Assembly: GCF_005871165.1 (NCBI RefSeq)
Contig: NZ_SWKP01000008.1
Location: 62,001-126,000, forward strand
Reading direction: 5' to 3'
Source: Maricaulis alexandrii
GTDB lineage: Bacteria > Pseudomonadota > Alphaproteobacteria > Caulobacterales > Maricaulaceae
DNA length: 64,000 bases
Within the stretch, counting starts at the first letter, position 1. Each line of letters starts with the position of its first letter. The position numbers and the translations under genes were made by a program. The notes beneath the pieces are model-generated. The model saw only the letters and a list, made by a program, of their open reading frames with translations, searched no databases and was not told where the DNA came from. This document shows, one piece after another, positions 3,420 to 11,318 of this stretch.

Positions 3420-5056
3420 CAAACGTCTCCCAAGTCGCATTGGCCGCGATAGACCAGATCGGAAAACCGCGCTTCGCCGGCCCCGGCGGCATAGATCGCC
3501 GGGCGCAGGCTGAGAAAATCATAGGCGGTATTGTGGTGATAGCCGGACACTTCCATCTGGACGTCGAACTTCGTCCAGCGCTGGCCGTCCAGGCTGAAAT
3601 GAAGCGTCAGAAGGTGGCGGTTATTCTCCAGCCGCAGGCGCAGCCGGGTCGTCCCCGCCGGGATGTCCTGGCGCCGTCGGCGCTCCTCGCCATAGCGGTG
3701 CATGACCAGCCCGTCGGCATCAAAGCCGAGGCCGGCATAGAGACGGTCATTGTAGAAGAGCAGAAGTCCGGCCCGGCAGTCCTCATCCCGCTCGATCGTC
3801 ACCTCGACCTGATAGCGCAGATCCCCTGTCACGAAGCAGAGCGGGCTGCTGTCGCGGGGCTGCTCGCCACGGGCCTGCAAATGCAGGACATTGTCGGACT
3901 GGCGCACCCGGTCATAGGCGTCAAGACCGGGCCGGAAAAAACCCCATTGCGGACCCAGCCGCTCGCCGGAGAAATCATCCGACAGGGCCAGCCCGTGCGG
4001 CAGGGCCTCGCCGCCGGCCGGGATCGGGAAGGCGTCTGACAGATCGCCGCCTGCGGCTTCGAACCATCCGTCCGCCCGCCAGCGGACCGGCTCCAGCAGG
4101 CATTGCCGGCCCAGCGTCCAGAAATCGCGCTCATAGCCGTGATAGATCAGATACCAGTCATCCGCGGTCGGCCCTTCAACGAGGGTCGCATGACCGCGCG
4201 ACCACCAATCTTCCTCGCGGGACAGGGTGCGCACTTGCGGATTGTTGGGGGCGTGTTCCCACGGCCCGTGAATGGAGCGCGAGCGTGCGGCGATGACCAT
4301 GTGCCCGGTCGGCGGTCCGGCCGTGCCGCCCACGGCAGTGAGCATGTAGAACCACTCGCCCCGGCGCAGCATTTTCGGGCCTTCCGGGCAGAAGCACTCC
4401 ACATCCCAGTCTTCGGGATAGCGCCAGGGATCATAGACATGCTCCACCGGTCCCGCGACCGAGAGGCCGTCGGGCGTCAGGCGGACCCGGTCGCCATTGG
4501 ACAGGAACAGATAGCGCTCGCCATCCTCGCCGACGATGTGGCCGGGATCGATATGATCGGGCAGGCCCAGATCGACCGGCTCGCTCCACGGCCCCTCGGG
4601 CCGGTCGGCATGGATGACATAGATGGATTTGTAGTCGTCCGTACGGGCGGGAATATAGATGTAGAACCGGCCGTCATGGGCGATCAGGTCGGGTGCCCAG
4701 ACCGAGCCGATCGGGGTGGTCAGGGCGGGCCCCAGGGGCTGCCAGTTCACCAGGTCCTTGGACTGCCAGATCAGCAGGCCGGGATAGGCGTCAAAGGTGG
4801 AAAAGGTGAGATACCAGGTATCCCCGTCCTTGATGATGGACGGATCGGGGTGATCGCCGGCGAGGACAGGATTGAGGAAACTGCCGTCCCCGCGATCCGC
4901 GATGCGCTGGCCGTCGAGGCCCCGCCCCCAGCGGCCGCAGGCCCCGGCGGCCATGCCGGTTTCCGGGGCCGACCGGGAACAGCCTGGCAGGACCAGGCCG
5001 GAACTCGCCGCCAGGCCAAGACCCAGTCCCAGGGTTTGCCGCCGTGATACCGTCAT
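3419..5056 (-). CDS. glycoside hydrolase family 43 (xylosidase/arabinofuranosidase type), Tat lipoprotein
   Basis: A 545-residue exported glycosidase. MTVSRRQTLGLGLGLAAS is a twin-arginine-type signal, and LVLPGC at its end is a plausible lipobox, so it may be anchored to a membrane. The start at 5056 has GGGAG just upstream; the frame is open further 5' but without start support. The five-bladed propeller domain opens with DHPDPSII (base aspartate). LPDHID holds the pKa-modulating aspartate and LVEGPTADDWY the acid glutamate. The last ~180 residues look like the beta-sandwich often found C-terminal in GH43. Probable role: releasing xylose or arabinose from oligosaccharides imported by, or prepared for, the neighbouring TonB receptor. 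Confidence 0.88.
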   Translation of the reverse strand: MTVSRRQTLGLGLGLAASSGLVLPGCSRSAPETGMAAGACGRWGRGLDGQRIADRGDGSFLNPVLAGDHPDPSIIKDGDTWYLTFSTFDAYPGLLIWQSKDLVNWQPLGPALTTPIGSVWAPDLIAHDGRFYIYIPARTDDYKSIYVIHADRPEGPWSEPVDLGLPDHIDPGHIVGEDGERYLFLSNGDRVRLTPDGLSVAGPVEHVYDPWRYPEDWDVECFCPEGPKMLRRGEWFYMLTAVGGTAGPPTGHMVIAARSRSIHGPWEHAPNNPQVRTLSREEDWWSRGHATLVEGPTADDWYLIYHGYERDFWTLGRQCLLEPVRWRADGWFEAAGGDLSDAFPIPAGGEALPHGLALSDDFSGERLGPQWGFFRPGLDAYDRVRQSDNVLHLQARGEQPRDSSPLCFVTGDLRYQVEVTIERDEDCRAGLLLFYNDRLYAGLGFDADGLVMHRYGEERRRRQDIPAGTTRLRLRLENNRHLLTLHFSLDGQRWTKFDVQMEVSGYHHNTAYDFLSLRPAIYAAGAGEARFSDLVYRGQCDLGDV

Positions 5057-8243: not shown

Positions 8244-11200
8244 TTGGCCCGATACTGTCTGACAGGACTTCTGGTCCTTTTGCTGGGCTGCAGCCTGTCC
8301 CTGCCCGCAGCCCGGGCCCAATCGGACGCCCGCGCCTGCATGGGAACCGGAGAAGCCGGTGGCCGCTATCACGCCTTCGCCGAATCCCTGTCGGAGCTGT
8401 TGGGCGACGCCATGCCCTGTCTTGAACCGACGGCCGGCAGTACCGAAAATCTTGAAGGCCTGCGCACCGGGCAGTTCGACTTTGTCATCGCGCAGAATGA
8501 TCTCGCCCACCATCTTTTCCATGGCGATAACGGCTATCAGCAATCCCGCGAATTCTCCGCTGTGGCCCCGCTTTTCCCGGAATATGTCCAGGTCTTCGTG
8601 CGCCGCGATCCGACGGCACCGATCCTGCTGGGCGATCTGCGCGGCGCAGCGGTGAATATCGGCACCCCCGGCTCCGGCAGCTATCGCAATGCCCGCGACG
8701 TGCTGGCTGCCGCCGGCCTGACCGAGGGCGTGGACTACCGGCCGACCGCCTTCTCCATGCAGACCGCGTTCGAGGCCCTGCGGGCCGAGACCATCGACGC
8801 CATGATTGTCACGGCTGCCAGCGACCTGGAATTCGACGAGCAGGCCTTCCAGCGCCTGGCCCTGCCCGCCTCGCTGATCGACACGCTGGTCACCGGCAAT
8901 GCCTATTATGATGCCGGCACCCAGCAGATCGGGGACATGCCGACCGCGGCCTTGGAGGTCCGGGCCTTCCTGTTTGCCCGCAATGACGCGCCGTCACGCA
9001 CGGTTTCCGAGCTGATGAACGGCCTGCTGGCGCATTGGGACGCCCTGTCCGAACGCACGCCCGGACTGGCCGATCCGGAGAGCTTCCTGCGCCGCTCCCC
9101 CCTGCCCTATCACCCGGAGGCGAGGCGGGCCCTGGTCGGTGCGGGTCATGCCAATCCGGAACCGGCCTATTGGATGTGGATCGTGATCTGGCTGGCCATC
9201 CTGTCCAGCAGCTTTGCCGCCGTGACCTTCCAGTCCTCCTATGACCGGACCGGTGTGAAGCGCGAGCGCCGGGGCCGGCTTGCCGGCCTGCAGACCGCGC
9301 TCGACCTGTGGGCCCGACCCAGCCCCTGGGTGATCGGCATCTCCCTGTTCGCCCTGACCCTCTTGCTGGCCCTTCTCGCCCTGCGCTCGGCCGAGGCGAG
9401 CTATGCGCGCGATCTCAATCTGGACAATCCCTTCGCCGACTTCACCCTGTCGGAAGGCTTCATCTGGATGCTGACCTTCGTGGCCAGCGGGTTCACCGAG
9501 AATGACGCCTATCCGCTGTCCGTTCTGGGGCGGCTCCTGGTCGCGGTCCTGGCCTTTGTCGGCGTGTCCGGTCCGATCGCCGCCATCATCATCGTGGTCA
9601 ATCTTTGGGGCCGCAAGCGGGCCGAATCCCTGGCCGGCCTCTCCGACACGCGCTGGCATGACCATGTCCTGGTCTGCGGCTGGAATGAGAGCCTGGACGG
9701 GGTTGTGTTCGCCCTGACCGGCAATGATGCGGAGAAGCTGAAAAAGGTCTGTATCGTCGCCGAGGCCGGCGATGCCACGCCGCTGGCGGACCATCGTTTC
9801 GACCAGTCCCGCGTCAATTTCCGGCGCGGCGACAGTGCCGACCGCGAAACCCTGGAACGCGCCGGGGCGGAAAAGGCCAGCCACGCCATCATCCTGGCCG
9901 ATTATGAGCGCCGCAAGACGCGCAATATCGGCGCCGTCCTGACGGCGATGAACCTGAAACGGCTCAATCCCGACATCCATATCTCCGCCGAGCTGGCCTT
10001 CTCCCAGAATGCCGACCATTTCGCCGCCTTCGGCTGTACCACGCTGATCACGCCGGACATTTTCGTTGCCAAGGCCGCCGCGCTCAGCACGATCCATCCC
10101 TTCATGATCGACTATCTGCTGGACGTGCTGACCTATGACGGGTTCGACGAGCTGTTCTCGATCGATTTCGAGGATCTCTGCCAGCTCAATCCGGATATCG
10201 AGCCGGGCATGGACAGCGGCGCGCTGGAACAGGTGCTCTGGCGCAGCGGTGCCAATCTGATCGGGCTGGTGCAGGGCGAGCTGCAGCGCAGCGCCGTGTT
10301 CGATGCCGAGGTGACCGATGGCGGGCCGATCATCTCCTACACGCGCAAGGCGGGCTATGGTCACAAACCGGCGCCCAATGACCGAATCATCTACAGCGCC
10401 CACAAGCGCAATTCGATCCGCAAGGATCGCGGTCACCATGATGTGGCGGATGCCGATCCGATCCCGCGCAGCAAATTCCGGCTGCAACGGCCCGAAGGCA
10501 CGGCCATTCTTCTGTATGCCTCACGCGCCCATCTGGAACGGCTGAGTGATAATCTGAAGGCCTTCCACATCAATCCGGTGATCCATTCCATCGCCATCGA
10601 GGACGAGCCCTTCCTGACCGCGGAACGCCTGGCAGAGCGCTTGCCGGCGGAGCTGGAATTCCAGCATGTCATCATCCTCGCCGATGCAGCGGCCAAGCGG
10701 GATGCGGCCGATTCCGCCTCGGTCCGCGCCGTTGATGCCGGCACGCTTCTGGCCACCAAGCTGATCCGGGAATACGCCACGAAATGCGGCTGGGACTGCA
10801 GCATCATCTCCGAAGTCCTGGCCCGCGAGGACCGGGAAGCCTTCCTGGGTCCGCAGGCGGCGCGCCTGATCGGTCAGGACAATCCGGACGCCCATGACGG
10901 CGCCGGTGCGACAGTCGTCATCCCCAGCGCCACCCTGGTGGAACGCTTCCTGGTGAAGGATGTGTTCGACGGCAATTCCATGCTCGATTTCCTGATCGCC
11001 GTGATGAATATGCGTGACGGGACGCACCTCCACATCCACGAGGTCACGTCGGAGGACTATCTGCTGGGCGAAGCCTATGCGAGCCTGGTGAAGACCCGTC
11101 TGCCCGGCCTGCACTTGGTCGGCTGGCTACCGATTTCCAAGCGGGAAGAACTGCGCAACCGGGCAGGGGATTTCAACTTCCACTTCCGCACATCCTTCGA

Positions 11201-11318
11201 CAGCCGGATCGAGCAGACGGAGATCCGCGAGGGCGATCTCCTCGTGTTCACCGCCTGCATGCGGATCTGGGAAGAGGGCGACCGGTCCGAGGGGGATCAG
11301 GGCAGCGACCCGGTCTGA
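8244..11318 (+). CDS. TAXI solute-binding domain fused to CASTOR/POLLUX-like ion channel with RCK domains
   Basis: A single 1024-residue frame. Residues ~1-25 are a signal peptide. About 30-300 match the TAXI family of TRAP binding proteins: GTGEAGGRYHAFAESLS, FDFVIAQNDLAHH, VNIGTPGSGSYRNA and a terminal LPYHPEARRAL. A first helix (309-329) is followed by a basic loop, a second helix (362-384), a re-entrant segment (400-421, MLTFVASGFTEND) and a third helix (428-454). Two Rossmann-type RCK regions follow (from ~472, VLVCGWNES; from ~753, AILLYASRAH), ending in a C-terminal domain. Charges give a consistent topology: ligand domain periplasmic, RCK cytoplasmic. The filter is not the TVGYG of potassium channels. 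TTG start with GGGAGG 7-8 bases upstream. Likely a ligand-gated cation channel; ligand and ion are unknown. Confidence 0.85.
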   Translation: MARYCLTGLLVLLLGCSLSLPAARAQSDARACMGTGEAGGRYHAFAESLSELLGDAMPCLEPTAGSTENLEGLRTGQFDFVIAQNDLAHHLFHGDNGYQQSREFSAVAPLFPEYVQVFVRRDPTAPILLGDLRGAAVNIGTPGSGSYRNARDVLAAAGLTEGVDYRPTAFSMQTAFEALRAETIDAMIVTAASDLEFDEQAFQRLALPASLIDTLVTGNAYYDAGTQQIGDMPTAALEVRAFLFARNDAPSRTVSELMNGLLAHWDALSERTPGLADPESFLRRSPLPYHPEARRALVGAGHANPEPAYWMWIVIWLAILSSSFAAVTFQSSYDRTGVKRERRGRLAGLQTALDLWARPSPWVIGISLFALTLLLALLALRSAEASYARDLNLDNPFADFTLSEGFIWMLTFVASGFTENDAYPLSVLGRLLVAVLAFVGVSGPIAAIIIVVNLWGRKRAESLAGLSDTRWHDHVLVCGWNESLDGVVFALTGNDAEKLKKVCIVAEAGDATPLADHRFDQSRVNFRRGDSADRETLERAGAEKASHAIILADYERRKTRNIGAVLTAMNLKRLNPDIHISAELAFSQNADHFAAFGCTTLITPDIFVAKAAALSTIHPFMIDYLLDVLTYDGFDELFSIDFEDLCQLNPDIEPGMDSGALEQVLWRSGANLIGLVQGELQRSAVFDAEVTDGGPIISYTRKAGYGHKPAPNDRIIYSAHKRNSIRKDRGHHDVADADPIPRSKFRLQRPEGTAILLYASRAHLERLSDNLKAFHINPVIHSIAIEDEPFLTAERLAERLPAELEFQHVIILADAAAKRDAADSASVRAVDAGTLLATKLIREYATKCGWDCSIISEVLAREDREAFLGPQAARLIGQDNPDAHDGAGATVVIPSATLVERFLVKDVFDGNSMLDFLIAVMNMRDGTHLHIHEVTSEDYLLGEAYASLVKTRLPGLHLVGWLPISKREELRNRAGDFNFHFRTSFDSRIEQTEIREGDLLVFTACMRIWEEGDRSEGDQGSDPV

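Follow-up and report, generated by a model that had tools for sequence, protein, structure and literature searches.

Can one bacterial protein carry a solute-binding domain outside the cell, a channel pore in the membrane and RCK domains inside, and what would such a protein do? The question is raised by a gene of Maricaulis alexandrii at positions 8244-11318 (forward strand) of the window, by which we mean the whole stretch of 64,000 nucleotides that was analysed. The gene is a single open frame of 1024 amino acids with no internal stops. It has a TTG start at 8244, preceded by a purine-rich stretch, GGGGGAGGCGG, and no second match in its own 3.35 Mb genome. An earlier note on this DNA had read it as a TAXI domain, a pore and RCK domains joined in one uninterrupted frame, and this reading was borne out by matches to family models, by profile searches, by predicted structures and by eight homologues of full length. 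The domain order is a secretion signal, a complete TAXI domain, a membrane helix (TM0), a basic inside loop, a TM1-P-loop-TM2 pore and a cytoplasmic region with RCK1 and a putative RCK2.

On the opposite strand, the longest frame of a TonB-dependent receptor (window:5148-8543, reverse) overlaps the start of the channel gene; the true start of the receptor probably lies further in, making the two genes divergent.

Homologues and origin of the fusion

Eight other full-length proteins with the same domain order, 29-88% identical, were found in Maricaulis, Oceanicaulis, a Parvularculaceae bacterium and an uncultured Sphingomonadaceae. A search of 299 genomes of the order returned four more full-length proteins (60, 51, 35 and 35% identity), and a scan of a genome collection returned eight full-length loci, four of them shared with the order search: Maricaulis IN27 (88%), SAT23 and HXMU1422-2, Oceanicaulis HTCC2633 and BBD 1991-10, an alphaproteobacterial MAG, a Parvularculaceae MAG and the uncultured Sphingomonadaceae (30%). 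Most of these are metagenome-assembled genomes; Oceanicaulis sp. HTCC2633 has no MAG label. The same domain order, which the earlier note had proposed to look for in related genomes, therefore occurs in eight further full-length cases, and its worry that the frame might be a sequencing fusion of genes that are separate elsewhere was not realised, since the homologues hold both halves in one gene. The nine proteins align end to end. They form one clade (100/100) in a tree of the pore and RCK1 with RCK relatives, and again one clade (100/100) in a tree that combines their TAXI domains with ordinary TAXI proteins. The two trees branch compatibly, and the fusion is consistent with a single origin.

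Judged by codon comparison, both halves are under purifying selection. Omega against IN27 was lowest in TM0 and the linker (0.04) and rose through the pore (0.07) and each RCK part (0.09) to the TAXI domain (0.16); the signal peptide, at 0.87, was the sole loosely constrained part. The gene is rare and patchy, being present at full length in 4 of 19 genomes of the genus. A search with the channel half in 385 genomes of the class and 399 of the phylum gave no further full-length case beyond this order and no other sensor-channel fusion with the same channel half, and no full-length copy was found in viral contigs or plasmids.

Domains, topology and filter

A Sec-type signal peptide, residues about 1-25 (8244..8318, forward strand, as are all features below), ends in PAARA/Q and was recognised from the sequence and from a model helix at 2-18; most homologues in the nine-protein alignment also have signal-like N-terminal sequences. 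The TAXI solute-binding domain follows at residues 33-301 (8340..9146). The Pfam model NMT1_3 matched 33-297 over profile positions 1-285 of 289 (E 4e-23, above the curated cut-off), and the NCBIfam model TRAP_TAXI TIGR02122 matched at E 1.1e-30, also above cut-off. A PDB sequence search with the protein found the TAXI structure 1us4 over 31-301 and MthK over 407-634, and a profile of the nine homologues matched 1us4 at E 2.5e-38. In the full-length AlphaFold2 model of a single chain (pLDDT 67.9, pTM 0.43), a signal helix at 2-18 was followed by the binding domain at 32-300, and a fold search with this model returned glutamate-bound TtGluBP (1us4) at a TM-score of 0.76 (on target), as well as VcGluP. 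The proposal of a nearly complete TAXI domain at about 30-300 was thus confirmed by the two family models and the 1us4 match.

VcGluP holds glutamate by Y45, S75, Q93, E125 and other residues, and its affinity was lowered 213-fold by Y45A and 990-fold by Q93A (PMC11574862). With the contacts taken from that paper, and the PDB chain numbering of VcGluP reconciled with that of the paper by an offset of 28, HMM alignment to VcGluP (8s4j) and TtGluBP (1us4) placed these four residues on Y42, S66, Q84 and E113, and Thr187 of TtGluBP, an amino-group contact, on T190; Tyr200 of VcGluP fell on V189 and is not kept. The predicted pocket residues lie within 8367..8813, with codon starts at 8367 (Y42), 8439 (S66), 8493 (Q84), 8580 (E113) and 8811 (T190). 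Y42, Q84 and E113 never vary among the nine homologues, and position 66 is Ser or Thr. The kept residues are no proof of the ligand, because the pocket Tyr and Gln are also common in ordinary TAXI proteins (78% and 54%, respectively; PMC11574862). A glutamate-type outside ligand (glutamate, glutamine or a related small carboxylate) is plausible from the aligned residues.

The full-length model and a second AlphaFold2 model, of residues 300-700 (38 sequences; pLDDT 82.9, pTM 0.71), agreed on helices at 309-328, 347-357, 360-391, 402-415 and about 427-463, with Rossmann-type domains after them. The first of these is TM0 (309-328; 9168..9227), which joins the outside domain to the inside loop and is followed by basic residues. 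A juxtamembrane helix (347-357; 9282..9314) precedes TM1, the outer pore helix (360-391; 9321..9416), which is also covered by the pore profile against the PDB. The pore helix (402-415; 9447..9488) aligns with that of KcsA, and TM2, the inner pore helix (427-463; 9522..9632), was placed by the homologue alignment, the pore profile and the model. In TM2, the invariant G440 falls on the hinge glycine of KcsA, P444, four residues later, is invariant as well, and the model of 300-700 shows a kink between 439 and 442. There are no S1-S4 voltage-sensor helices, the helix at 309-328 being the only one before TM1 in both models. Structure prediction, named in the earlier note as a check that might reveal no pore, does yield one, in the form TM1-P-loop-TM2; the predicted pore unit stands, with its limits moved from 362-454 to about 360-463. 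Followed by RCK1, it has the arrangement of an RCK-regulated P-loop channel of the MthK/Slo type.

The extra membrane helix at 309-328 fixes the predicted topology. The net charge is +4 in the loop 329-360 and -3 between TM1 and the pore helix, and the outside segments are negative. Together with the signal peptide and the count of three membrane helices, these charges suggest that the TAXI domain lies outside, that the pore loop enters from the outside as in K+ channels and that the RCK domains lie inside, which agrees with the orientation proposed earlier.

A pore-only profile, for which residues 360-465 were taken from eight homologues so as to leave out the RCK part, was compared with all PDB sequences. 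All 60 of the matches listed were K+-channel pores (KcsA, Shaker, Kv2.1 and KCNQ); the best, at E 0.005, was a KcsA variant whose Gly at position 75 makes the score look better. Profile-profile comparison with the K+-type pores of RCK channels gave E 5e-6. Ion_trans_2 had no match to the full protein at E<=1, and Ion_trans had none. Three concordant alignments placed the filter segment S415-G-F-T-E-N-D421 (9486..9506) where K+ channels have TTVGYGD, on what we take to be T74-T-V-G-Y-G-D80 in KcsA numbering, so that both filter glycines of TVGYG are replaced. TVGYG is absent from all nine homologues, which have SG[F/L]T instead. S415, G416 and T418 are invariant in the nine and P424 is invariant across homologues of 29-88% identity; E419, N420 and D421 are variable. 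With both glycines gone, the pore has probably lost selectivity for K+, and from its sequence it may be a non-selective or Na+/Ca2+-admitting cation channel. We know of no characterised filter that resembles SG[F/L]T, which leaves conduction as a prediction.

RCK1 extends over residues about 472-690 (9657..10313). Slo-like_RCK matched 472-580 and TrkA_N, the comparison suggested in the earlier note, matched 476-604, both above curated cut-offs, so that the RCK assignment holds; MthK was found by sequence and by fold. The nine-homologue profile matched the pore and RCK1 of MthK at 1.5e-13 and BK at 6.5e-6. Slo1, the CASTOR gating ring, GsuK and MthK were also matched in the fold search with the full model, and MthK ranked first in the search with the model of 300-700. 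The matches to the CASTOR ring, GsuK and Slo1 span both RCKs; the RCK2-like region, residues about 754-1004 (10503..11255), was assigned by fold match only, has no family-model match, is partly below pLDDT 50 and is of low confidence after residue 911. RCK1 is the best-kept part in comparison with the more distant homologues. Two of the three Ca2+ ligand positions of MthK, which we take to be Asp184, Glu210 and Glu212, have equivalents here (D553 and E583); the third is A585, and an MthK-like Ca2+ site was rejected on this ground.

Several other channels were met in the searches. A clade of proteins with S1-S4, a pore and RCK domains (L041:7593-9050, L042, L043, L049, L071, L080, L101; L048, L083, L094), from Myxococcota, Acidobacteriota, Cyanobacteria, Planctomycetota and others, carries non-K+ filters such as AGEPVG or SEYVDRFP; a sub-threshold Castor_Poll_mid match in L048 suggests that the clade may be bacterial cousins of CASTOR/POLLUX. 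Two-helix RCK channels at L046:7815-8900 and at many Synergistota loci (L052, L055, L056 and L063) have the filter LIGQGEFA in place of TVGYGD, and this filter is conserved across Synergistota. In one Myxococcales genome, a K+-type RCK channel (L105:2118-3794) precedes a separate gene with a second, CGWN-type RCK domain (3791-4501); the two overlap at their ends, and the pair resembles a split two-RCK channel.

Genome context and proposed function

The claim that no TRAP permease adjoins the channel gene proved correct, and there is no TAXI-type permease anywhere in the genome. The channel protein is the sole NMT1_3 match in M. alexandrii and the only TAXI protein in four of the five genomes searched (its own and three of four others). 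TRAP_fused TIGR02123 gave nothing over cut-off in any of the five, and GltS, the other known TAXI partner, of which TAXI fusions exist (PMC12344293), was likewise absent from all five. The two DctM permeases of M. alexandrii adjoin their own DctP proteins. A TRAP subunit or GltS-linked uptake was rejected on these genome searches, and the most economical interpretation is that the TAXI domain works for the channel. The genes around it in the window encode a TonB receptor, a GH43 enzyme, an RlmL-like methyltransferase, an S8 peptidase and a TPR-EAL protein; when neighbourhoods were compared for a hint of the ligand, they had nothing in common beyond close relatives, and no partner gene is kept next door.

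In Oceanicaulis HTCC2633, a Na_sulph_symp/CitMHS carboxylate symporter (L034:10955-12415, reverse) is convergent to the channel gene; it was not seen beside the other homologues. TAXI proteins with open frames of about 430-520 amino acids (L007:790-2205, reverse, and L008-L030) are encoded in many genomes of one family within this order, and that of L007 has a C-terminal membrane helix and a charged tail.

The protein is, in our view, probably a P-loop cation channel made of four chains, which is opened or modulated both from outside and from inside the cell. In such a tetramer a single pore would have four binding domains on its outer side and a gating ring of eight RCK domains on its inner side, as in MthK/Slo; we infer the tetramer, the ring and ion conduction from knowledge of the family. 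Closure of the TAXI domain on its ligand could pull TM0 and the juxtamembrane helix 347-357 against TM1, to go by their position, and the RCK ring would set a bias according to a cytosolic ligand. Only tentatively do we propose the more specific reading of a bacterial cation channel gated by amino acids of the glutamate type and independent in origin of GluR0 and the animal receptors, in which a TAXI flytrap drives a pore of K+-channel orientation that has lost K+ selectivity, and the same chain carries a second, Slo-type cytosolic gate.

The absence of the K+ filter signature from all nine homologues would also fit a sensor that does not conduct, in which the pore fold is a scaffold and outside binding is passed on to an RCK region that acts on a partner; the divergent RCK2 region could serve such another task. 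We regard this as unlikely, because S415, G416, T418, P424 and G440 are unchanged across homologues of 29-88% identity, because drift would be expected in a pore without function but this one is under strong constraint, with an omega of 0.07 against the nearest homologue, and because no partner gene is conserved nearby. RCK channels are normally gated from inside, and a channel with the RCK ligand as its main gate, in which the TAXI domain tunes the pore and reports the nutrient state, would accord with this habit, with the Slo/MthK-like RCK1 being best kept in distant homologues and with the faster evolution of the TAXI half. The complete binding domain and its conserved pocket suggest a strong role for TAXI, however, and the incomplete set of MthK Ca2+ ligand positions (two of three) also weighs against an RCK main gate, which makes it quite improbable.

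There is very little chance that the protein serves TAXI-dependent solute uptake through an unusual membrane part, in the manner of TAXI-GltS: TAXI domains otherwise belong to transport proteins and such fusions are known (PMC12344293), but the membrane part here is a K+-channel-type pore with RCK domains, such pores pass no amino acids, and the five genomes have neither TRAP_fused nor GltS. An assembly or annotation artefact fusing two genes is hardly credible, with nothing but the rarity of the architecture in its favour and, against it, eight full-length homologues (that of Oceanicaulis sp. HTCC2633 not MAG-labelled), compatible trees, and 95% identity with the nearest homologue across TM0 and the linker; a sequencing fusion was rejected on the full-length homologues and the trees.

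If the proposed cation channel conducts, it would be a second, independent way of linking a flytrap that binds nutrients to a P-loop pore; this pore would be oriented opposite to that of glutamate receptors and have an intracellular gate built in. It would give a compact natural system for studying how control of one pore is divided between a binding domain outside and a gating ring inside, offer SG[F/L]T as an unstudied filter sequence for the selectivity problem and give TAXI proteins a part in ion signalling beyond their known roles.

Comparison with known systems

MthK, a two-helix RCK-gated K+ channel, resembles the present protein in pore topology, in the link into RCK1 and in the sequence and fold of RCK1. 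It differs in its filter, TTVGYGD as against SGFTEND, and the protein described here has in addition an extra membrane helix, an outside binding domain and probably two RCKs per chain. A probable tandem of RCKs, judged by fold match, and the Slo-like_RCK model are shared with Slo1/BK and GsuK, but there is neither an S1-S4 voltage sensor nor a K+ filter.

The earlier note had placed the filter closer to the CASTOR/POLLUX type than to potassium channels, but it is not specifically of that type, and the likeness is partial. The likeness to CASTOR/POLLUX/DMI1 consists of the gating-ring fold (TM-score 0.50), a weak RCK1 profile match (E 0.006) and the lack of TVGYG. The CASTOR filter is A-D265-S/A-G-N-H-A, in which the Asp is essential (PMC6697748), whereas VASGFTEND has no Asp before SG; alignments to K+-channel filters fit the segment better, and the nearest solved relative of the pore and RCK1 is MthK. 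Castor_Poll_mid had no match at E<=1 in any of the nine proteins, and the outside and membrane parts also differ. Membership of CASTOR/POLLUX was rejected on the absence of Castor_Poll_mid and of the filter Asp.

Like GluR0 and the iGluRs, the protein couples, on paper, an outside Venus-flytrap domain to a P-loop pore. GluR0 has an inverted topology and a GYG filter (PMC13099474), and in channels of its type the binding domain is split around the pore (PMC13099474, PMC2950845), whereas here an uncut N-terminal TAXI unit precedes a pore of inferred K+-channel orientation, with RCK domains after it. SBP_bac_3 had no match in the nine proteins. The GluR0 analogy of the earlier note is therefore one of supposed function only, since topology, filter and domain family differ.

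On the TAXI side, the domain has the fold and full length of TtGluBP and VcGluP, with equivalents for most of their contact residues; those proteins are separate transporter subunits, whereas this domain sits in the channel chain. TAXI-GltS fusions (PMC12344293) likewise join TAXI N-terminally to a non-TRAP membrane protein, but GltS is a secondary transporter and the partner here is a channel pore. A 2010 survey of prokaryotic glutamate-receptor relatives mentions neither TAXI nor RCK, and no description of TAXI with RCK was found in the open-licence literature searched. The parts are known; their combination as TAXI, pore and RCK was not found in that literature. We call the protein an RCK-regulated P-loop channel with a TAXI sensor, one that would work like the glutamate receptors without belonging to them.
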